NCBI RefSeq assembly: GCF_011250645.1
Contig: NZ_JAANNO010000006.1
Span: 94,235 to 158,234, forward strand
Length of the DNA: 64,000 nt
From: Motilibacter aurantiacus
GTDB lineage: Bacteria; Actinomycetota; Actinomycetes; Motilibacterales; Motilibacteraceae
Direction: 5' to 3'
Shown here piece by piece: positions 5,708 to 44,213 of the stretch. Both the position numbers and the translations under genes were made by a program. The notes beneath the pieces were generated by a model. The model worked only from the letters and a program-made list of their open reading frames with translations. It was not told the DNA's origin and did not search any database. Every line of letters begins with the position of its first letter. Within the stretch, counting starts at the first letter, position 1.

Positions 5708-5983
5708 TCAGTGACGCGTCCTTCCGGAATCGCCGGTTCGGTTGTCGGGGGCCTCGCCGTCGGGGATGCCGAGCGCGTCGCGGAGCTCGGCCTCGCGGTC
5801 GGACATCGCGGCCCGTACGTCCTGGCCGAAGTCGCGGATGCCCGCCCCGAGCTCGCGCATCGCGTCGGCGAGGGTCTGCGCCATGCTCTGCGGGGTGAGC
5901 GCCTGCGCGGCGCGGGTGAGCCGGCGCACGATCAGCGCGCCGAGCGCGGCGCCGAGGCCGAGCCAGAACAGCCGGCGGATCAC
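5708..5983 (-). CDS. DUF6167-like small membrane-associated protein
   Basis: A 91-aa protein. The GTG at 5983 is preferred because it sits 1 nt after the TGA of the upstream DUF948 gene, and the protein then begins directly with the hydrophobic helix '[15 protein letters not shown]'. A longer reading starting at 6019 would overlap that gene. After the helix comes an amphipathic stretch ('[27 protein letters not shown]') and a polar tail. Position between a DUF948 protein and alaS is the usual place of the uncharacterised DUF6167 family in actinobacteria. Function unknown; a membrane-anchored helical partner of the DUF948 protein is an inference. Confidence 0.75.
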
Positions 5984-5984
5984 G

Positions 5985-6383
5985 TCAGCCCCTTCCGCGG
6001 GTCGGGCGGCCCTGCGCACGGCGGGTCCCGGTCGGCCGGCGGCGCTCGGAGAGCGCCTCGCGGACGCCGTAGCTGAACGACGACGCCTTCAACATGGGGC
6101 GGCCGAGCGTCGACACCAGAAGCGCGGTGAACGCCGACACGTTGCCGGACATCTCCTGCACGTTGCCGGTGATGCCGTCGAGCTTGACGAGGTTGCCGTT
6201 GGTCGTCGTCACCGTCGTCGTCACCTCCCGCACGAGCGGGACGGTCTCGTCGGTCAGGCCGCGGACGGTGCCGCGGGCCTCGTCGATCAGGCGGCCCAGC
6301 TTGACGAGCGGGACCGCGACGACACCGACGAGCAGCACGAAAGCGAACGCCGCCACCAGGCCGGCGATCTCCCCAGGGGACAT
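5985..6383 (-). CDS. DUF948 domain-containing membrane protein
   Basis: A 132-aa protein with a strongly hydrophobic N-terminal helix (residues 3-28, 'IAGLVAAFAFVLLVGVVAVPLV') and a long helical region with repeated T-V/N patterns ('VREVTTTVTTTNGNLVKLDGI'), typical of DUF948, a family often compared to chemoreceptor-like coiled coils. The C-terminal 25 residues are basic and low in complexity. A TAGGGT box ends 7 nt before the ATG, so the mRNA is probably leaderless. It leads a run DUF948-DUF6167-alaS. The function is not known. Confidence 0.85.
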   Translation of the reverse strand: MSPGEIAGLVAAFAFVLLVGVVAVPLVKLGRLIDEARGTVRGLTDETVPLVREVTTTVTTTNGNLVKLDGITGNVQEMSGNVSAFTALLVSTLGRPMLKASSFSYGVREALSERRRPTGTRRAQGRPTRGRG

Positions 6384-6390
6384 GGCGGGA

Positions 6391-6396
6391 ACCCTA
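6391..6396 (-). promoter_or_regulatory. -10 box of leaderless promoter for the DUF948 gene
   Basis: Read on the minus strand the hexamer is TAGGGT, followed by 7 nt (TCCCGCC) and the ATG. This matches the TANNNT consensus and the spacing expected when transcription starts on the A of the start codon. No Shine-Dalgarno lies in between. Confidence 0.6.
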
Positions 6397-7794
6397 CCCC
6401 GTGGCCTCCGGTCCCTCCGCCGCCTCGGGGGGCGGCGGCGGGGCGGGGGCGACGGCCGCCTCGGGAGCGGGCAGGCCGCGCACCGCCCGCCGGAGGCGGT
6501 CCACCCGGTCGCCGATCATCCGCTCGGCGCCGTGGCCCGTCGGGGCGTAGTAGTCACGGCCCACCACGGCGTCCGGGGCGTACTGCTGGGCGACGACCCC
6601 GTGGGGGTAGTCGTGGGCGTAGCGGTAGCCCGCCCCGTGCTCGAGCCGCTTCGCGCCCGCGTAGTGGGCGTCGCGCAGATGGGCCGGCACCGGCCCGGCC
6701 AGCCCGCGGCGCACGTCCGCGATGGCCGCGTCCACCGCCAGGTAGACCGCGTTCGACTTCGGCGCGAGGGCGAGGGCGACGACGGCCTGGGCAAGGATGA
6801 TGCGGGCTTCGGGCATCCCGATGAGGGCGACCGCCTGGGCGGCGGCGACCGCGGTCTGCAGGGCCGTCGGGTCCGCCATGCCGATGTCCTCGCTGGCCGA
6901 GATCATCAGCCGGCGGGCGATGAAGCGCGGGTCCTCCCCCGCCTCCACCATGCGGGCGAGGTAGTGCAGGGCCGCGTCGACGTCGGACCCCCGGACCGAC
7001 TTGATGAACGCGCTGGCGACGTCGTAGTGCTGGTCGCCGGTCTTGTCGTAGCGGACCGCCGCGCGGTCCACCGCGCGCTCGAGGGTCTCCACGTCGATCG
7101 CCGCGGCGCCCGCCTCCTGTGCCGCCCCCGCCGCGGACTCCAGGGCCGTCAGGGCACGTCGGGCGTCCCCGCCGGCGATGCGCAGCAGGTGCTCCTCCGC
7201 GGCCTCCTCCAGGCGTACGGCACCGCCGAGGCCGCGCGCGTCGGTCAGCGCGCGCCGCACGAGCACCCGGACGTCCTCGTCCGTGAGCGGTGACAGCGTC
7301 AGCAGCAGGGACCGTGACAGCAGGGGCGAGACGACCGAGAAGTAGGGGTTCTCCGTGGTGGCCGCGACGAGGACGACCCAGCGGTTCTCCACCGACGGCA
7401 GCAGGGCGTCCTGCTGCGTGCGGGAGAAGCGGTGCACCTCGTCGACGAACAGCACGGTCTCCTGGCCCGACGAGCCGAGCCGCCGGCGCGCGTCCTCGAC
7501 GACGGCGCGCACCTCCTTCACCCCGGCCATCACCGCGGACAGCTCGACGAAGTGGCGGCCGCCTGCCGCCGAGACCAGGTGCGCCAGGGTGGTCTTGCCG
7601 GTGCCGGGCGGCCCCCACAGCACGACCGAGGCCGGCGCCTGACCGCCCTCGGCCAGCCGGCGGAGCGGGGCGCCCGGGCCGAGCAGCGAGGCCTGCCCCA
7701 CCACCTCGTCGAGGGACCGCGGCCGCATGCGCACCGCCAGCGGCGCGTTGCCGCGCGCGACGTCCTCGCCCGCGGAGCTGAACAGGTCGGTCAC
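6394..7794 (-). CDS. rarA: Replication-associated recombination protein A (RarA/MgsA AAA+ ATPase)
   Basis: RarA acts at stalled replication forks. The protein is 466 aa from the GTG at 7794. The AAA+ module has Walker A 'GPPGTGKTT', Walker B '[10 protein letters not shown]', sensor 1 'AATTEN' and a sensor-2 arginine in '[12 protein letters not shown]'. The C-terminal MgsA region '[23 protein letters not shown]' and '[16 protein letters not shown]' is diagnostic and separates it from RuvB and DnaX. The last 25 residues are Ala/Pro-rich. The start codon follows a TAGCCT box by exactly 7 nt, suggesting a leaderless transcript. Longer upstream readings in this frame have no better start. Confidence 0.94.
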
Positions 7795-37111: not shown

Positions 37112-37347
37112 CCTCGTCCTGTCGCCGGCGGCCACCGCGCCGGGCAGGTCGTCCAGTGGGTGCGCGGTGGTGCTGACATCGTAGTGAGGACGGCGGGCGT
37201 GCCCGACCGTCCGCGGCGACGCGGCCCTCGGGCCCTTGCGGGGGCCCGACGACCGGAGCAGGCTTCCAGCCAGCCGGGCCGTCCGAGCCGGCCACCCGGA
37301 GCCGGCCGGTGACCCGACCTGTTGACGACGTACGAAGGAGGGGCCTC

Positions 37348-39504
37348 GTGGGATCTGCAGCGAGCCAGTCAGGAGCCGCCGGCGGCGGTGCGGCGCCGGT
37401 CGCCGAGCGCCCCGAGCAGGTGCGCAACGTCGTCCTCGTCGGGCACTCGGGCGCGGGCAAGACCACGCTGGTCGAGGCCGTCCTCGTCGCGGCCGGGACG
37501 ATCCCGCGCCCCGGCCGGGTCGAGGACGGCAGCACCGTGACCGACTTCGACGAGGCCGAGGCCCGCCAGCAGCGCACGGTCTCGCTCGCGCTCGCCCCGC
37601 TCCTGCACGACGGCATCAAGGTCAACCTGCTCGACGCCCCCGGCTACGCCGACTTCGTGGGGGACCTGCGCGCCGGGCTGCGCGCCGCCGACGCCGCCCT
37701 CTTCGTGGTCTCGGCCGTGGACGGCGTCGACGCGGCGACGTCCCTGCTGTGGGAGGAGTGCGCGGCGGTCGGCATGCCCCGCGCGGTGGTCGTCACCAAG
37801 CTGGACAAGGAGCGCGCGGACTTCGACGAGTCCGTCGCCGTCTGCCAGCGCGTGTTCGGCGACGGCGTGCTCCCGGCGTACGTCCCCCTGCTCGCCGACG
37901 ACGGCAGCGTGGCCGGGCTGTACGCCCTGCTCTCCCAGCGGATCGCGGACTACTCCTCGGGCAGCCGGGAGGAGCACCCGGCCGAGCCCGAGCACATCGA
38001 GGGCACCGCCGACGCGCGCGCCGCGCTGCTCGAGGGCATCATCGCCGAGTCCGAGGACGAGACGCTGATGGACCGTTACCTCGGCGGCGAGGAGCTCGAC
38101 GTCAAGACGCTCGTCGAGGACCTGGAGAAGGCGGTCGCCCGCGGCAGCTTCTACCCGGTGCTGCCCGTGTCGGCGCTCGACGGGGTGGGCATGGTCGAGC
38201 TGCTGGAGCTGATGACCCAGGCGTTCCCCTCCCCGCTCGAGCACCCGCTGCCGGCCGTCACCACCCCGGGTGGCGACCCGCAGCCTCCCCTCACCTGCTC
38301 CCCCGACGGCCCGCTGGTCGCCGAGGTGGTCAAGACCACGACCGACCCGTACGTCGGGCGGCTGAGCCTCGTCCGCGTCTTCTCCGGCACGCTGCGCCCC
38401 GACCTCCCGGTCCACGTCTCGGGGCACGCCGCGTCGTTCTTCGGCGAGACCGCCGGCCACCCCGACCACGACGTGGACGAGCGCATCGGCGCGCTGTCCT
38501 CGCCGCTGGGCAAGGCCCAGCGCCCGGTCCAGGCCTGCATCGCCGGTGACATCTGCGCCGTGGCCAAGCTCACCCGGGCCGAGACCGGCGACACGCTGTC
38601 GGCCAAGGAGCAGCCGCTGCTCGTGGAGCCGTGGACGATGCCCGAGCCGCTGCTCCCGGTGGCGATCCGGGCGCGGTCCCGCAGCGACGAGGACAAGCTC
38701 GGCGTCGCGCTCGGCCGCCTCGTCGCCGAGGACCCGACGCTGCGGCTCGTCCAGGACGCCGAGACCGGCCAGCTCGTCCTCTGGTGCATGGGCGAGGCGC
38801 ACGTCGACGTGGTGCTCTCGCGGCTGCAGGGGCGCTACGGCGTCGGGGTGGAGACCGAGCCGCTGCGGGTGTCCCTGCGCGAGACGTTCGCCGGGCCGGC
38901 CAAGGGCCACGGCCGGCACGTGAAGCAGTCCGGCGGGCACGGCCAGTTCGCCATCTGCGACGTCGAGGTCGAGCCGCTTCCGACCGGCGCGGGGTTCGAG
39001 TTCGTCGACAAGGTCGTGGGCGGTGCCGTCCCGCGCCAGTTCATCGCCTCCGTGGAGAAGGGCGTGCGCGCCCAGATGGCCAAGGGCGTCGCCGCGGGCT
39101 ACCCCGTCGTGGACATCCGCGTCACCCTCGTCGACGGCAAGGCGCACTCGGTCGACTCCTCGGACATGGCGTTCCAGATGGCCGGGGGGCTCGCGCTGCG
39201 GGACGCCGCCTCCGGCGCCGCGGTGTCGCTGCTCGAGCCCGTCGACGAGCTGCTCGTCATGGTGTCCGACGAGTACGTGGGCGCGGTCATGAGCGACCTG
39301 TCGGGCCGGCGCGGCAAGGTCCTGGGGACCGAGCCGGCGCCCGGCGGGCGGACGCTCGTGCGTGCCGAGGTCCCCGAGCCGGAGATCACCCGGTACGCGA
39401 TCGAGCTGCGCTCGCTGTCGCACGGCAGCGGGACGTTCACCCGCTCGTACGCCCGGCACGAGCCGATGCCGAGCCATCTCGCGGCGAAGGTGCTGGGCTC
39501 GTGA
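37348..39504 (+). CDS. Elongation factor G-like protein (EF-G2)
   Basis: 718 aa from the GTG at 37348, which has GAAGGAGGGG upstream. GTPase motifs are G1 'GHSGAGKTTLVEA', G3 'LLDAPGYADF' and G4 'VVVTKLDKER'. EF-G domains II-V follow ('LRDAASGAAVSLLEPVDELLVMVSDEYVGAVMSDL' region is domain IV/V, cited here by key parts). It diverges from canonical EF-G (DAPG instead of DTPG; different switch I), as in the actinobacterial EF-G2 subfamily found as a second copy. Role in translation is not known. Its last 68 bp overlap the convergent GH15-like gene. Confidence 0.9.
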   Translation: MGSAASQSGAAGGGAAPVAERPEQVRNVVLVGHSGAGKTTLVEAVLVAAGTIPRPGRVEDGSTVTDFDEAEARQQRTVSLALAPLLHDGIKVNLLDAPGYADFVGDLRAGLRAADAALFVVSAVDGVDAATSLLWEECAAVGMPRAVVVTKLDKERADFDESVAVCQRVFGDGVLPAYVPLLADDGSVAGLYALLSQRIADYSSGSREEHPAEPEHIEGTADARAALLEGIIAESEDETLMDRYLGGEELDVKTLVEDLEKAVARGSFYPVLPVSALDGVGMVELLELMTQAFPSPLEHPLPAVTTPGGDPQPPLTCSPDGPLVAEVVKTTTDPYVGRLSLVRVFSGTLRPDLPVHVSGHAASFFGETAGHPDHDVDERIGALSSPLGKAQRPVQACIAGDICAVAKLTRAETGDTLSAKEQPLLVEPWTMPEPLLPVAIRARSRSDEDKLGVALGRLVAEDPTLRLVQDAETGQLVLWCMGEAHVDVVLSRLQGRYGVGVETEPLRVSLRETFAGPAKGHGRHVKQSGGHGQFAICDVEVEPLPTGAGFEFVDKVVGGAVPRQFIASVEKGVRAQMAKGVAAGYPVVDIRVTLVDGKAHSVDSSDMAFQMAGGLALRDAASGAAVSLLEPVDELLVMVSDEYVGAVMSDLSGRRGKVLGTEPAPGGRTLVRAEVPEPEITRYAIELRSLSHGSGTFTRSYARHEPMPSHLAAKVLGS

Positions 39505-40903
39505 GCGCCTGGCCGGGCGCGGGCAGCGGCCGCTCCAGCGCCGTCAGCGCGAGCAGGGCCGACGCCGCCGTCCAGCCGAGGGGGGCGACCGACGCCGGCG
39601 ACCCATAGGCGTCGACCTTCTCCGGCAGCGCGCCCAGGGACGTGCGGTGGGCGGCGAGCCATCCGAGCAGGCGGCGCGCGTCCGCCGGCCGGCCCGTCGT
39701 CGCGTACGCCAGGGCGAAGGCGGCGGTCTCCGGCGTCCAGGCGGTGCTGGGGTTGGTGAACTCCTCGCCGGGGCGGACGCCCCCGCTGGGGGTGCGCAGG
39801 GCCTGCTCGGCACGGTCGAGGCTCGTGGGGCCGAGCAGGGCGCCGTCGCCGAAGGGCGGCGCGAGCCAGGCGACGGCCGAGTCGACTCCTCCCTCGCCGC
39901 CGGCGTACCGCGTCGGCCGGTCGCCGCTCCAGCCCGCGGCGAGCGCCGCCTGCAGCCGGCCGGCCGCCTCGGTGGCGAGGGCCGCGGTGGCGGGGTCGCC
40001 GCCGTGCCGGGCGAGGTCGGCCGCCGCCCGCATGCCGGCGAGCAGCGGGGCCACCGCGCCGAGCGTCGGGCCGTCGACCGACACCTCCCAGTAGTCCGGC
40101 ATGGCCGGCGGCAGCCCGTCCGGGCCGAGGCGGGCCGCGAGCGCCGACACGGCGCGGGCGACGGCGGGCGCGAGCTCGGTGCGCAGCCGGGCGGCCGCCG
40201 CGGGCCCTGCCGCCCGGCGTACCTCCTCCACGACCGTCCAGACCGCCCAGGGCACCCAGCCGTTGGCGTCGAGCTGGTCGGGCCGCTCGTCCGGCGGCCC
40301 GGAGCCGTCGGGCCGGGTGCGCGCCGCCCAGGTGCCGTCGGGGCGCTGCTGCCCGGCTATCCAGCGCAGCACCGACGCCGCCTCGGGGACGTGCCCGGTG
40401 ACGGCGAAGGCGGCAGCGACGAAGGCGGCGTCGCGCGGCCAGACGTACGCCCAGATGCCCTCCGGCGCGGCGAGGGAGGCCCCGTCCGGCCGGGTCAGCA
40501 GCCGCAGGTCCAGCAGCGCCCGTTCCGCCATGTCGCGCAGCGGCGCGGTGTCGCCGGGCACCGTGCCCTCGGCCAGCCAGCTGCGGGACGCCTGGACGAG
40601 GCGGGCGGCCCGGTCCTCGTCGCGGCGCTCGTCCCCGAGGTCGAGCGGGGCGGGGACCGCCGGCGCAGGGTCCGCCGGCCCGGTGAGCAGGACGCCGTCG
40701 GCGAGGCGCAGGACGCTGCTGCCGGGGACGTAGGCGGCACCGGGGCGCTCGGCGTGCAGCACCCGCACCGAGCCGGGCGTGCCGACCAGCCCGTGGCTGC
40801 GCAGCGCGACCGGCGGGGGGTCCCCGGGCGCGGCGGCGGTGACGCCGGCGGCGAGTGCGGAGGCGACGAGGACGACGGCCACTGCCCGCCACGCTGCCCG
40901 CAC
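39437..40903 (-). CDS. Secreted GH15-like (six-hairpin) glycosidase-type protein
   Basis: 488 aa from the GTG at 40903 with AGGAGG exactly 6 nt upstream. N-terminal signal peptide ('AVAVVLVASALAAGVTAAAPG'). The alpha/alpha-barrel region has 'GIWAYVWPRDAAFVAAAFAVTG', a typical GH15 W-x-R-D substrate-binding motif, 'QQRPDGTWAAR', 'DANGWVPWAVWTVVEE' and 'EEFTNPSTAWTPETAAFALAY'. Glucoamylase or trehalase activity is possible, but the catalytic acids cannot be assigned safely. It is divergent from the small-protein/HTTM operon and overlaps the EF-G2 gene at the 3' end. Confidence 0.8.
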   Translation of the reverse strand: MRAAWRAVAVVLVASALAAGVTAAAPGDPPPVALRSHGLVGTPGSVRVLHAERPGAAYVPGSSVLRLADGVLLTGPADPAPAVPAPLDLGDERRDEDRAARLVQASRSWLAEGTVPGDTAPLRDMAERALLDLRLLTRPDGASLAAPEGIWAYVWPRDAAFVAAAFAVTGHVPEAASVLRWIAGQQRPDGTWAARTRPDGSGPPDERPDQLDANGWVPWAVWTVVEEVRRAAGPAAAARLRTELAPAVARAVSALAARLGPDGLPPAMPDYWEVSVDGPTLGAVAPLLAGMRAAADLARHGGDPATAALATEAAGRLQAALAAGWSGDRPTRYAGGEGGVDSAVAWLAPPFGDGALLGPTSLDRAEQALRTPSGGVRPGEEFTNPSTAWTPETAAFALAYATTGRPADARRLLGWLAAHRTSLGALPEKVDAYGSPASVAPLGWTAASALLALTALERPLPAPGQALTSPAPSPRDGSASARAGRTSG

Positions 40904-40976: not shown

Positions 40977-41423
40977 GTGATCGACAGCGCGCTGGCGCGC
41001 GGCGCCGTCGCCTGGCGGGTAGCCGTCACGGTCGTGGCCGGCGCCCTGCTGACCGCCGGCACGCTCTGGGGCCAGGACGACGCCTGGCCCTTCGGGCCGT
41101 TCCGGATGTACTCGACCAGCACCGACCCCTCGGGGGTGGTCACCGTGCTCACCCTCGAGCGGCAGGCCCACGACGGCCGCTGGGCCGAGACCCCGCTCAC
41201 CGCGGAGAACGTCGGGATGAACCGGGCCGAGGCCGAGGGGCAGCAGCCCCGCCTCGTGGCCGACCCGGCGTTGCTGGCCCGGTTCGCCGAGGCGCACGAG
41301 CGCCTGCACCCGGAGGACGCGCCCTGGCCGGCCGTGCGCCTCGTCCGGGTCGCCACCGTGCTCGAGGACCGGCGCCCGACCGGCGAGGTCCGCCGGGAGG
41401 TGCTCGCCACGTGGCGACGCTGA
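40977..41423 (+). CDS. Small WPF-motif protein, copy 1
   Basis: 148 aa from the GTG at 40977 with GGGAGG upstream. One N-terminal hydrophobic helix ('AVTVVAGALLTAGTLWG'), then a non-cytoplasmic-looking domain with 'DDAWPFGPFRMYSTSTDPSG' and 'PLTAENVGMNRAEAEGQ', ending with 'RLVRVATVLEDRR'. It is clearly homologous to the gene at 42334. Its last 13 bp overlap the HTTM gene. No known function; its pairing with an HTTM protein suggests it is a partner or substrate. Confidence 0.75.
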   Translation: MIDSALARGAVAWRVAVTVVAGALLTAGTLWGQDDAWPFGPFRMYSTSTDPSGVVTVLTLERQAHDGRWAETPLTAENVGMNRAEAEGQQPRLVADPALLARFAEAHERLHPEDAPWPAVRLVRVATVLEDRRPTGEVRREVLATWRR

Positions 41424-42337
41424 CGCCTCAGCAGACGCGCGCGGCCCGGCGGACGTGGGGCGACCGGGCGCGCAACTGGCTGCTGCCGGCCGTCGCGCTG
41501 GAGCGCGTGGCGGTCCTCCGCGTCCTCGTCTACCTCTTCGTCCCGCTGGACGTGCTGCTGCTGCACACGATCGGCGACACCCGCAGCGCGGCCAACGCCG
41601 AGCTCTACTCCCCGCTGCTGATCGGCCGGCTGCTGCACCTGCCGGTGCCCAACGAGACGCTCGTGCTCGTCTGCAAGTGGGGCTCCGCGCTGCTCGCGCT
41701 GGCCGCGCTGAGCGGCCGCGCGCCCCGGGTGCTCGGCGTCGGCGTGCTGCTGCTGTGGGCCGAGTACCAGGTCGTCGCCTTCTCCTACGGCAAGGTCGAC
41801 CACGACCGGTTCGCCTTCCTCGTCGCCCTCGCGGTGCTGCCGACGGTGGGCCGGGCACGGCTGCGCGGCTGCGGCTCCTCCGAGGCGGCCGGGTGGGCGC
41901 TGCGCTCGGTGCAGCTCGCGGTCGTCGCCACCTACTTCTACGCGGCCTGGGCGAAGGTCCGGTTCGGCGGCTGGGAGTGGGTCAACTCGGCGACGCTAGC
42001 CCGGGCCGTGGACCGGCGCGGGACGGTGCTGTCGGAATGGATGCTCGACGTCCCCTGGACGCTGCACGTCGGGCAGTGGGTGATCGTCGCCTTCGAGCTG
42101 CTCGCCCCGGTGGTGCTGTTCGTGAACGAGCGCTGGCGGCTGCGGATCGTCGCGTTCTTCCTCGCCTTTCACCTGGCGACGTACGCCGGCACCACCATCT
42201 TCTTCTGGCCGCACACGCTCTGCCTGGCCGCTTTCCTCCCCCTCGAGCGGCTCGCCCCGCGGCTGGCGGTCGCCGCCGAGCGTGCCCGCGAGCGGCTCGG
42301 GCTGCCCGGGACACGGTCCCCGGCCCGCACGTCGTGA
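41411..42337 (+). CDS. HTTM (vitamin K carboxylase-like) membrane protein, copy 1
   Basis: 308 aa. At least six hydrophobic segments. The sequence fits the HTTM domain (horizontally transferred transmembrane domain, related to the membrane part of vitamin K-dependent gamma-carboxylase): 'YSPLLIGRLLHLPVP', 'FSYGKVDHDRFAFLVALAVL', 'VQLAVVATYFYAAWAKVRFG' and 'LAFHLATYAGTTIFFWPHTL'. The GTG at 41411 overlaps the previous gene by 13 bp. The homologous domain in this window is at 42807. Enzymatic activity is unproven. Confidence 0.82.
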   Translation: MATLTPQQTRAARRTWGDRARNWLLPAVALERVAVLRVLVYLFVPLDVLLLHTIGDTRSAANAELYSPLLIGRLLHLPVPNETLVLVCKWGSALLALAALSGRAPRVLGVGVLLLWAEYQVVAFSYGKVDHDRFAFLVALAVLPTVGRARLRGCGSSEAAGWALRSVQLAVVATYFYAAWAKVRFGGWEWVNSATLARAVDRRGTVLSEWMLDVPWTLHVGQWVIVAFELLAPVVLFVNERWRLRIVAFFLAFHLATYAGTTIFFWPHTLCLAAFLPLERLAPRLAVAAERARERLGLPGTRSPARTS

Positions 42338-42810
42338 CCGGCCCCGCGCGGCCGGGCCCACGCGGCGCCGACCTCCCGCTCACCCGCCGCGCCGTGCTCT
42401 GGCGCGGCGGCGCGCTCGCCGTGGTCACCGCCGGTGCGGCCTGGGGCAGCCTGCGCGGGGTCGACGACCACTGGCCCTTCGCGCCCATGTCGCAGTTCGC
42501 CTTCCGCACCGACCCGGACGGGGAGGTGCGCGCCGCCTTCGTGACCGCGGTGACCGACGCCGGCGACGCGGTCGACGTCCCGCTCACCAACGACTCGGTC
42601 GGGATGAACCGGGCGGAGGTCGAGGGCCAGCTGGAGAGCTTCCGCGAGCGGCCCGAGCGGCTGCGCGCGCTCGCCGAGGCGTGGGCCGCGCTGCACCCGG
42701 GACGTCCCCGGCTGGTCCGCGTGGAGCTGCACGAGCGCGTGACCCGGATGGAGGGCGGGCGGCTGCTCGACCCGGTCGAGGTGCCGGTAGCCGCTTGGCA
42801 GGGCCGGTGA
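42334..42810 (+). CDS. Small WPF-motif protein, copy 2
   Basis: 158 aa from the GTG at 42334, coupled to the HTTM gene before it by GTGA. N-terminal Arg-rich segment and hydrophobic helix ('LAVVTAGAAWGSLRG'), followed by 'DDHWPFAPMSQFAFRTDPDG', 'PLTNDSVGMNRAEVEGQ' and 'RPRLVRVELHERVTRME'. It shares the DD-x-WPF-x-P, TDP-x-G and VGMNRAE-x-EGQ motifs with the protein at 40977, so the two arose by duplication. Confidence 0.75.
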   Translation: MTGPARPGPRGADLPLTRRAVLWRGGALAVVTAGAAWGSLRGVDDHWPFAPMSQFAFRTDPDGEVRAAFVTAVTDAGDAVDVPLTNDSVGMNRAEVEGQLESFRERPERLRALAEAWAALHPGRPRLVRVELHERVTRMEGGRLLDPVEVPVAAWQGR

Positions 42811-43709
42811 GCGTGACCGTCGCCCCACCCGGGCGTGCCGCGCGCTGGCTGGCCCCGGCCGTACCGCTCGCCCGGGCCGCGGTGCTGCGCCGGGTGCTCG
42901 CCGTCTTCGTCCTGCTCGACATGGCGTTCCTCACCGCCGACGTCCTGCCGCACGCGAAGGGGCCGGCCGAGCTCTACCAGCCGCTGCTGCTGCGCCGGGT
43001 GCTGGGCCTGCCCGCGCCCGGCCCGGAGTACGTCCGGGCGCTGGCGGCCGTGGTGGTCGTGGCCGCGCTCGTCGTCGCCGCCGGCCGGCTGCCCCGGCTG
43101 GCCGGCGCCGTCCTGGCCGTCGGGTTCCTCGACTGGGTCTCGATCGCCTTCTCCTACGGCAAGATCGACCACGACCACTTCGCACTGGTCGTCGCGCTCT
43201 TCGCCCTCCCGACCGTCGGGCCGGCGGGCCTGCGTGACCTGCGCACGAGCGCAGCCGCAGGCTTCGCGCTCCGTGCGGTGCAGGTCGCCTGCGTGGCGAC
43301 GTACTTCCTGTCGGCGGTCGCGAAGATGCGCTTCGGCGGTGCCGGCTGGGCGACGGGGGCGACGTTCTCCTGGGCCATGTCGCGGCGGGGCACGCAGCTG
43401 GGCGACGTGCTCGCCGAGGCGCCGGCCCTGCTGCGCACCGCGCAGTGGGGCGTCCTCGTCATGGAAGCGCTGACCCCTGCACTCCTCGTCGTGCGAGCGC
43501 GCTGGCAGGCGATCGGCGCCCTCACGCTGGCGGCGTTCCACCTGGGGACCTGGGCGACGACCCGCATCCACTTCCTGCCGCTCGTGGTGTGCCTCGCGGC
43601 CTTCCTTCCCCTCGAGCGGCTGGTGCCGGCGCGCCCGTTGCTCGCCCGGCTCGGCTCAGGGCTCGCCCGGCCAGGCGGCCGCGAGCAGGCGGCGGGTCTC
43701 CGCCAGTAG
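42807..43709 (+). CDS. HTTM membrane protein, copy 2
   Basis: 300 aa from the GTG at 42807 (GTGA overlap with the preceding small protein). Motifs align with copy 1: 'YQPLLLRRVLGLPAPG', 'FSYGKIDHDHFALVVALFAL', 'VQVACVATYFLSAVAKMRFG' and 'AAFHLGTWATTRIHFLPLVV'. Membrane-embedded. Its last 54 bp overlap the convergent HIT-protein gene. Completes a four-gene operon small-HTTM-small-HTTM. Confidence 0.82.
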   Translation: MSVTVAPPGRAARWLAPAVPLARAAVLRRVLAVFVLLDMAFLTADVLPHAKGPAELYQPLLLRRVLGLPAPGPEYVRALAAVVVVAALVVAAGRLPRLAGAVLAVGFLDWVSIAFSYGKIDHDHFALVVALFALPTVGPAGLRDLRTSAAAGFALRAVQVACVATYFLSAVAKMRFGGAGWATGATFSWAMSRRGTQLGDVLAEAPALLRTAQWGVLVMEALTPALLVVRARWQAIGALTLAAFHLGTWATTRIHFLPLVVCLAAFLPLERLVPARPLLARLGSGLARPGGREQAAGLRQ

Positions 43710-44213
43710 CTGGGGCAGGACACGGGTGCGGGCCACGACCGGCATGAAGTTGGTGTCGCCACCCCACCGCGGCACGACGTGCTGGTGCAGGTGGGCGGCG
43801 ATGCCGGCTCCCGCGATGCCGCCCTGGTTCATCCCGATGTTGAAGCCCTGGGCCCCGCTGACCAGCCGCACCGTGCGCATCGCCGCCTGGGTGAAGGCCG
43901 CGAGCTCGGTCGTCTCCGCCACGTCGATGTCGGTGTAGTCGGGCACGTGGCGGTACGGGACCGCGAGCAGGTGGCCGGCGTTGTACGGGTAGAGGTTGAG
44001 GACGGCGTAGACCAGCTCGCCCCGGGCGACGATCAGCCCCTCCTCGTCGCTCAACGAGGGGATGTGGCAGAACGGGCAGGACTGCCCGCCCTCGTCGGAC
44101 GGCTTGTTCTCCCCGCGGATGTAGGCCATGCGGTGCGGGGTCCAGAGCCGCCCGAGCGCGTCGGGCTCCCCCGCTCCCTGCTGCTCGACGAGCTCGGGCG
44201 GCTCCAGCGTCAT
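43656..44213 (-). CDS. HIT-family hydrolase
   Basis: 185 aa. The histidine triad is 'AHLHQHVVPRW'; 'CPFCHIPS' forms a zinc site with a later His. 'NLYPYNAGHLLAVPYRHV' is the usual nucleotide-side motif. These proteins split nucleotide phosphoesters or phosphoramidates; substrate not defined. It directly follows thrS (15 bp) on the minus strand. In mycobacteria thrS-HIT-pgsA-acyltransferase-pimA is continuous; here pgsA is 6.5 kb away. Confidence 0.92.
   Translation of the reverse strand: MTLEPPELVEQQGAGEPDALGRLWTPHRMAYIRGENKPSDEGGQSCPFCHIPSLSDEEGLIVARGELVYAVLNLYPYNAGHLLAVPYRHVPDYTDIDVAETTELAAFTQAAMRTVRLVSGAQGFNIGMNQGGIAGAGIAAHLHQHVVPRWGGDTNFMPVVARTRVLPQLLAETRRLLAAAWPGEP

Follow-up and report, generated by a model that had tools for sequence, protein, structure and literature searches.

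HTTM proteins are common in the phylum Actinomycetota and mostly unexplained, and an operon in which two of them each follow a small protein that belongs to no family raises the question of what the small proteins contribute. The operon lies in a 64,000-nucleotide stretch of Motilibacter aurantiacus DNA (contig NZ_JAANNO010000006.1, positions 94,235 to 158,234; hereafter the window), where four genes, A1-B1-A2-B2, fill positions 40977-43709. The small partner A1 (40977..41423, 148 aa) and the HTTM membrane protein B1 (41411..42337, 308 aa) are followed by a small partner of a second type, A2 (42334..42810, 158 aa, with the motif WPFAPMSQFAF), and its HTTM protein B2 (42807..43709, 300 aa); all four start with GTG, and they overlap by 13 (A1/B1), 4 (B1/A2) and 4 bases (A2/B2). 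The order small-HTTM-small-HTTM proposed by the initial annotation is borne out by the open reading frame (ORF) coordinates, all on the forward strand, and the motifs that it listed as shared between the two small and between the two HTTM proteins were all found in the translations. We take the four ORFs to be real genes because homologues of both gene kinds are present in other genera. B1 matches the Pfam family HTTM (PF05090) with 29.9 bits, above the cut-off of 27.7, and B2 with 20.8 bits (E 3e-4), under it; A1 and A2 match no Pfam or NCBIfam family in searches up to E 1. In BLASTP, A1 and A2 are 41% identical over 123 columns (E 3e-21), and B1 and B2 46% over 287 columns (E 2e-68).

The answer that we consider probable is that each A-B pair forms a two-subunit membrane enzyme resembling GGCX, the vitamin K-dependent gamma-carboxylase (VKGC in bacteria), that is, a carboxylase in two pieces, with the HTTM protein as its membrane core and the small protein as its detached extracytoplasmic domain.

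Likeness of B, and probable likeness of A, to GGCX

The membrane half was compared through an AlphaFold2 model of B1 (mean predicted local distance difference test, pLDDT, 92.8) and through family profiles. VIA, a structural second look at the list returned by Foldseek with the predicted models of B1 and A1 as queries, gave GGCX entries in all of the first 16 rows for B1 (Z 10.7-16.4, 193-269 residues aligned, covering approximately GGCX residues 41-333), after which the rows fall to Z 8.3 and then to 4.8. The profile of the B family aligns with that of bacterial VKGC in hhalign (prob 97.2, E 3.7e-11), and the bacterial VKGC profile retrieves human GGCX in hmmsearch (E 6e-81); the relation of HTTM to vitamin K-dependent gamma-carboxylase, on which the initial annotation had built, is thus upheld by the 16 top VIA rows and by the profile comparison. 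Read through both profile alignments, H131, K182, W190 and F253 of B1 correspond to H160, K218, W223 and F286 of GGCX. Across the aligned B sequences, H131, K182 and W190 are each kept in 86/86 and F253 in 85/86, the remaining row being a gap, while H131 and K182 are both kept in 15/15 members of a set obtained by plain protein search, a check that is independent of selection by pattern. K182 is also absent from the patterns of the 80-locus scan described below. In a structural study of GGCX, vitamin K hydroquinone is deprotonated by K218 as the base, Glu carboxylation is supported by H160, and W223 and F286 are residues of the quinone pocket (PMC12589487). The modelling and the alignments show a predicted GGCX-like core fold in B with conserved equivalents of catalytic residues. 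The B1 chain stops after this core: HTTM is the sole Pfam family found at E <= 0.001 among the 86 B members (57 of which match PF05090 at that threshold), and the lumenal domain PF22777 was not found in the B chain. Sequence searches of the PDB returned nothing useful, whether the query was B1 or one of the first alignments of A and of B.

The small half offers a candidate for what B1 lacks. A1 has one N-terminal membrane helix followed by a beta-beta-alpha-beta-beta domain carrying the motif DDAWPFGPFRMYS; its model (pLDDT 89.8) has a helix at residues 5-31, strands at 53-63 and 69-72, helices within 76-110, and strands at 119-130 and 133-147, and the stretch WPFGPFRMYS occupies residues 37-46 (41085..41114, forward strand). 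The best VIA rows for A1 fall on GGCX residues 401-490 (Z 3.7), with GGCX entries making up 12 of the 50 rows listed; no solved structure of SdpA or DUF5819 appears by name among these 50, which is uninformative. A link by profile comes from a bridge family, small proteins that carry a motif of the FGWQ[MF][YF]S type and occur in genomes G103, G124, G253 and G264 (PFGWQMYS, 4 sequences). In hhalign, the profile of these four sequences reaches E 1.8e-5 against the VKGC lumenal domain and E 1.3e-4 against the A family; reversed controls give 0.19-0.49, and the forward profile comparisons numbered 45 in the first round and 14 in the bridge round. Through this bridge, F42-R43-M44-Y45 of A1 aligns with W399-D400-M401-M402 of GGCX and is proposed as its equivalent. 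According to the same structural work, M401 and M402 help to build the wall between the quinone and Glu pockets of GGCX (PMC12589487). Because the FRMY of A1 aligns with these wall residues, we propose that A would complete the quinone pocket. The small protein A is most likely, with support from the bridge and from the structural rows, a detached GGCX extracytoplasmic (lumenal) domain on its own anchor helix.

A number of results weigh against this reading of the pair. With Foldseek alone, GGCX ranks first for the B1 model yet only at E 2.5e-3, so that no match reaches E <= 0.001, and none reaches it for the A1 model either; the Z of 3.7 for A1 is weak and tied with unrelated chains, for example PD-1. 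Direct comparisons of A with the VKGC lumenal domain fail, giving prob 1.8 in hhalign (alignment A4) and, in a further comparison, E 0.35, equal to the reversed control. PF22777 matches 0 of the 86 A members at E up to 10, a range in which 18 Pfam families appear, each in 1-3 members. When two fused members are added to the bridge profile, its links weaken to E 0.018 and 0.0036. In the membrane half, K217 of GGCX corresponds to A181 of B1 and N159 mostly to D130, both unconserved, and Y395 of GGCX has no evident equivalent in the pair. The patterns of the 80-locus scan include YGKVxH, and another begins with D[RH], so that H131 and R/H133 were partly selected for. The M. aurantiacus genome, which is 98.8% complete, has 0 matches to VKOR (PF07884) and none to the DCC family by Pfam. 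Finally, six weak A-profile matches in other genomes (G346, G103, G007, G185, G140 and G054; E 7e-5 to 0.009), which may be chance, may lack an HTTM neighbour.

If the pair is nevertheless a divided carboxylase-like enzyme, the alignments suggest how it could work. In the membrane core, K182 of B1 would take a proton from a reduced quinone (probably menaquinol), and H131 would help to hold the substrate. A would act as the lumenal or periplasmic domain with its own anchor helix, and its [FW]-x-M-[YF] motif, in the place of the GGCX linker M401-M402, would close the quinone pocket and wall off the substrate site. A and B would thus form a fixed heterodimer on the outer side of the membrane and would modify a substrate; the kept histidine would favour the handling of an acidic side chain. 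The two paralogous pairs could then be two such enzymes with re-tuned pockets. Compared with GGCX and bacterial VKGC (PF05090 plus PF22777), the pair has the membrane core fold, in the B1 model, and the K218 and H160 equivalents, with A in place of residues 401-490 as far as the weak Z of 3.7 and the bridge family indicate; it differs in being encoded by two genes instead of one, with the gene for the domain upstream, in having an A that is far smaller than the lumenal region of GGCX, in the lack of conservation at K217, and in a genome where VKOR was not found.

Pairing and the two paralogous types

The pairing was followed in an even sample of the phylum (246 genomes, searched with A and B) and in a pattern-based scan with the B alignment across one genome per species (84,980 species). 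In the sample, A is present in 12 and B in 15 genomes, and 16 of the 17 A matches adjoin a B match by coordinates; the 17th (G048, E 2.4e-4) has two internal stops and no HTTM match beside it. Four genomes have a B match without an A match: in three of them the match (E 1e-10 to 7e-4) is to a different HTTM gene, itself accompanied by a small partner, and in the fourth (G157) an HTTM fragment at a contig end. The A profile finds 24 places in 18 of 396 genomes; the 16 strong ones (E 9e-36 or better) are the matches of the 246-genome sample, and among the eight weak ones a copy in G113 and a broken copy in G032 adjoin an HTTM gene. The species-wide scan gave 82 relatives, of which 80 loci, with titles that all read as actinobacteria, were kept. 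HTTM homologues without the small partner were looked for among them, and A stands directly upstream of B in 78/78 testable loci, the other two (L101 and L113) having the HTTM gene at a contig start. The pairing of each HTTM protein with its own small partner, as the initial annotation had it, is therefore what these loci and the co-inheritance described below display. The 246-genome and 80-locus counts are not independent, since ten loci are common to both (L082, L087, L089, L096, L100, L102, L104, L107, L117 and L120). With starts chosen mechanically, the A-B gap is negative in 69/81 pairs, most often -4. The sequences from G048 and G157 were left out, as was L128 from alignment A8; odd starts or a broken gene led to the omission of L094, L103 and L120 from A7.

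Tandem pairs are rare, being seen in 3/78 loci (L042, L077 and L096) and in the window; L042 is Motilibacter deserti, the nearest relative among the 80 loci, whose four genes match those of the window in kind and order. The tandem duplication put forward in the initial annotation holds insofar as two adjacent homologous pairs are present, but it is not a recent event: in one and the same alignment B1 shares 56% identity with its G085 counterpart and only 44% with B2. A recent tandem duplication was rejected, each pair being closer to counterparts in other families than to the pair next to it. In trees of both proteins, window pair 2 and eight other pairs form one clade (support 97 for A and 98 for B), and window pair 1 groups with 15 pairs, mostly from Intrasporangiaceae (support 89 and 97), these values being among the nodes listed. 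Two whole pairs occur in nine genomes, and an A of one type beside a B of the other was seen in none of them (L096_2 is not resolved in the B tree); the types stand at separate loci in Phycicoccus Root101, Pedococcus 5OH_020 and G085. Over 86 pairs the identities of A and of B correlate with r = 0.915, a value that shared descent alone could yield. The pairing and the co-inheritance in the trees show, on this phylogenetic evidence, that the two window pairs are old paralogues and that each was inherited as a unit. The simplest reading would be that the pair was duplicated at this address long ago, the tandem being kept here and dispersed or lost elsewhere.

The types differ at positions where the two proteins would be expected to meet. 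In type 2, F/W42-R43-M44 of A becomes M-S-Q in 9/9 pairs, and in B, R133 (77/77 in the others) is replaced by H or Q, position 264 is H in 9/9, and position 268, mostly H in the others (73/77), is L or T. In the alignment with GGCX, B position 264 falls between F294 and F299, on the opposite side of the proposed quinone/Glu wall. The change from FRM to MSQ in A together with the changes in B is one evolutionary switch, suggestive of co-switched residues at a putative A-B contact but no proof of it. The top covarying A-B pair is A35/B73, with D against R in 63 rows; A35 is H in 11 rows, in nine of which B73 is E or K. Columns 34-48 of A take part in 51 of the 200 strongest A-B pairs when the type-2 rows are included and in 34 without those nine rows (21.4 expected); much of the covariation signal of this segment is, judging from these alignments, one old switch.

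Several loci near these sets deserve mention in their own right. The second pair of G032 is broken, with B pieces and a broken A beside them (L200, contig 92, 20354-21076), and L120 has a broken HTTM gene at 5983-6821; in both, the pieces lie in different frames, which points to decay or assembly error. A distant A-B pair in G113 (L162/L032), with the small protein DSFPLSTCPMYS, was recognized by eye; the small protein encoded about 380 bases downstream of it, whose start looks twin-arginine-like by eye, is a possible substrate candidate.

Possible kinship with other HTTM systems and rival readings

The layout extends beyond the WPF family, as the small proteins may be called after their motif. 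HTTM genes are present in 43/246 sampled genomes, and a PF05090 search of these genomes at E <= 0.001 gave 49 distinct HTTM genes outside the family (PF05090 misses both G085 pairs), of which three were excluded (one at a contig edge, two fragments) and 46 were testable. With partners judged by eye from printed ORFs, 13 of the 46 have an extra extracytoplasmic domain fused (G225 least certain), 30 are immediately preceded by a small gene for a helix-anchored protein, SdpA-SdpB included, and three (G076, G152b and G075) have a partner of neither kind. The VKGC lumenal domain was confirmed in L122 by Pfam and in G103 and G124 by genome search. A post-helix aromatic-x-[LMVF]-[FY]-[AST] motif occurs in 26/30 survey small proteins against 0.39 expected from shuffling, and in 75/86 members of the A family against 0.8 expected, with an expression drawn from the tested sequences themselves, which are mutually related. 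Among the survey small proteins that were scanned (7 of the 30 against NCBIfam, 9 against Pfam) there is one true SdpA with SdpB beside it (L146) and one protein above the DUF5819 cut-off; the G113b partner, scanned from 6 codons inside the open frame, gave no match. Of the 38 non-VKGC survey HTTM genes, 37 keep the lysine, and 15 have a histidine in the VKGC position or adjacent to it; the SdpB lacks this histidine, and so do the HTTM proteins encoded beside small proteins of the FAPNP type. On this comparison of residues, the WPF-A/B family is on the VKGC side of the histidine divide. The small-plus-HTTM arrangement is a wider layout that includes the known SdpA-SdpB. In L182 (G152) and L203 (G076), an HTTM gene with no partner domain seen lies downstream of an ABC transporter-like gene, a possible one-piece exception.

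How close SdpA-SdpB (TIGR04034/TIGR04033, the SDP toxin system) stands to A-B bears on function. Both have a small helix-anchored gene directly upstream of the HTTM gene, and SdpA of L146 carries an aromatic motif after its helix, QGWAFFTK; gene order and layout are thus those of a genuine SdpA-SdpB pair. In B. subtilis, SdpA and SdpB are both required to process SdpC to SDP (PMC6818787), and an HTTM protein is named in a linaridin cluster (PMC9927463). Should SdpAB be a true cousin, the alternative function is peptide maturation, in which A and B would mature a secreted antimicrobial or signalling peptide with no VKGC-type chemistry. We regard this as unlikely, since the SdpA and SdpB models give no match to the four window proteins up to E 1, 0/86 A members match Pfam SdpA (PF17418), hhalign to one SdpA sequence gives E 0.81, SdpB of L146 has GGD where VKGC and B carry the histidine, and B2 is the last gene of the operon, in which neither an SdpC-like nor an immunity gene was noticed (no search for one was made in the remainder of the genome). 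Likewise, DUF5819 (PF19136; L130 with 110 bits, L131 and L133 under the cut-off) and similar small actinobacterial proteins lie upstream of an HTTM gene and have a motif of the W-x-[LMV]-F-[AS]-P type, whereas they have no profile link to A, and their HTTM partners carry GD instead of H. What ties SdpA and DUF5819 to A is layout and motif, not profile.

The pair might also oxidise or epoxidise quinone, or handle another lipid, with no protein modified and A only shielding the pocket. No recurring substrate-like neighbour gene was seen in 81 loci and VKOR is missing from the genome, as such a role would allow, and the Leptospira homologue is not known to have carboxylase activity. Yet the histidine whose GGCX counterpart supports Glu carboxylation is kept throughout B, in both the 86-member and the 15-member sets, and A would take the place of the substrate-binding lobe of GGCX, if the weak structural match is followed; we find this reading rather improbable. 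That A is itself the substrate, or a chaperone, of the HTTM protein and stays outside the active site would fit the strict one-to-one pairing and the conserved glutamates of A (E85 in 81/86, E87 in 79/86), and it comes near the suggestion in the initial annotation to look for modified Glu in the small protein. The best structural rows for A, though weak, are a GGCX domain; similarly placed domains are fused to HTTM in 13/46 survey genes; and when the A motif switches, B positions close to the proposed quinone pocket change with it. This makes a substrate or chaperone role very improbable; instead of being a substrate, A most likely forms the extracytoplasmic half, now detached, of a divided GGCX-like enzyme.

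A bolder generalization, which we offer tentatively and rate as less probable than its opposite, is that most actinobacterial, and perhaps bacterial, HTTM proteins are halves of split quinone-driven GGCX-like enzymes, with the WPF family, DUF5819 and SdpA supplying the pocket-closing domain, and that the operon described here encodes two such re-tooled enzymes with different substrates. HTTM, VKGC and SdpAB are already known; a description of the WPF small family or of a split VKGC was not found among the matches listed from open-licence full texts, and a prior description elsewhere is possible. If the general reading were true, one membrane machine would underlie both SDP toxin maturation and blood-clotting carboxylation, a set of unnamed small families would gain a structural role, and for SdpAB there would be a concrete model in which the base and the quinone pocket are predicted. 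Easily grown organisms would also make it possible to study how vitamin K-dependent carboxylation arose, and structural work should then express A and B jointly instead of HTTM alone.

Gene neighbourhood

The operon ends with B2, whose end overlaps a convergent gene for a HIT-domain protein (43656-44213, reverse strand, Pfam HIT), which is context outside the A-B system. Upstream lie an elongation factor G-like protein (37309-39504, forward strand) and, divergent from A1, a protein on the reverse strand (39437-40900) that matches no Pfam family at E <= 0.001 and that we presume to resemble glucoamylase-type sugar hydrolases. Of 81 loci, 12 have thrS within six genes of the pair, 9 have pgsA and 8 an EF-G-like gene; these neighbours accompany both types here and in M. 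deserti, type 2 alone in Intrasporangiaceae and, elsewhere, other pairs, which looks like an old chromosomal address of pgsA and thrS and not a functional link. No substrate-like gene recurs beside the pairs, the frequent neighbours (thrS/pgsA/EF-G, amtB, thioredoxin) differing between clades.

Thiol-disulphide proteins were considered as general partners. A thioredoxin-like gene is near the pair in 24/81 loci, adjacent in 23 and mostly gene -1/+1 (L059-L118), all in Micromonosporaceae, and a DCC gene (PF04134) is within two genes of the pair in 16/81 loci (L065, L071 and others, gene +1), 15 of them in Micromonosporaceae, with both clusters named by eye. Thioredoxin or DCC as a general partner was rejected, since both are nearly confined to this one family and DCC is absent from the M. 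aurantiacus genome. Among the other HTTM genes, a DCC1-type thiol-disulphide oxidoreductase domain (PF04134) is fused to the HTTM protein in L142 (1465-2766) and is apparently encoded just downstream of HTTM in L131 (2464-2865, by eye).

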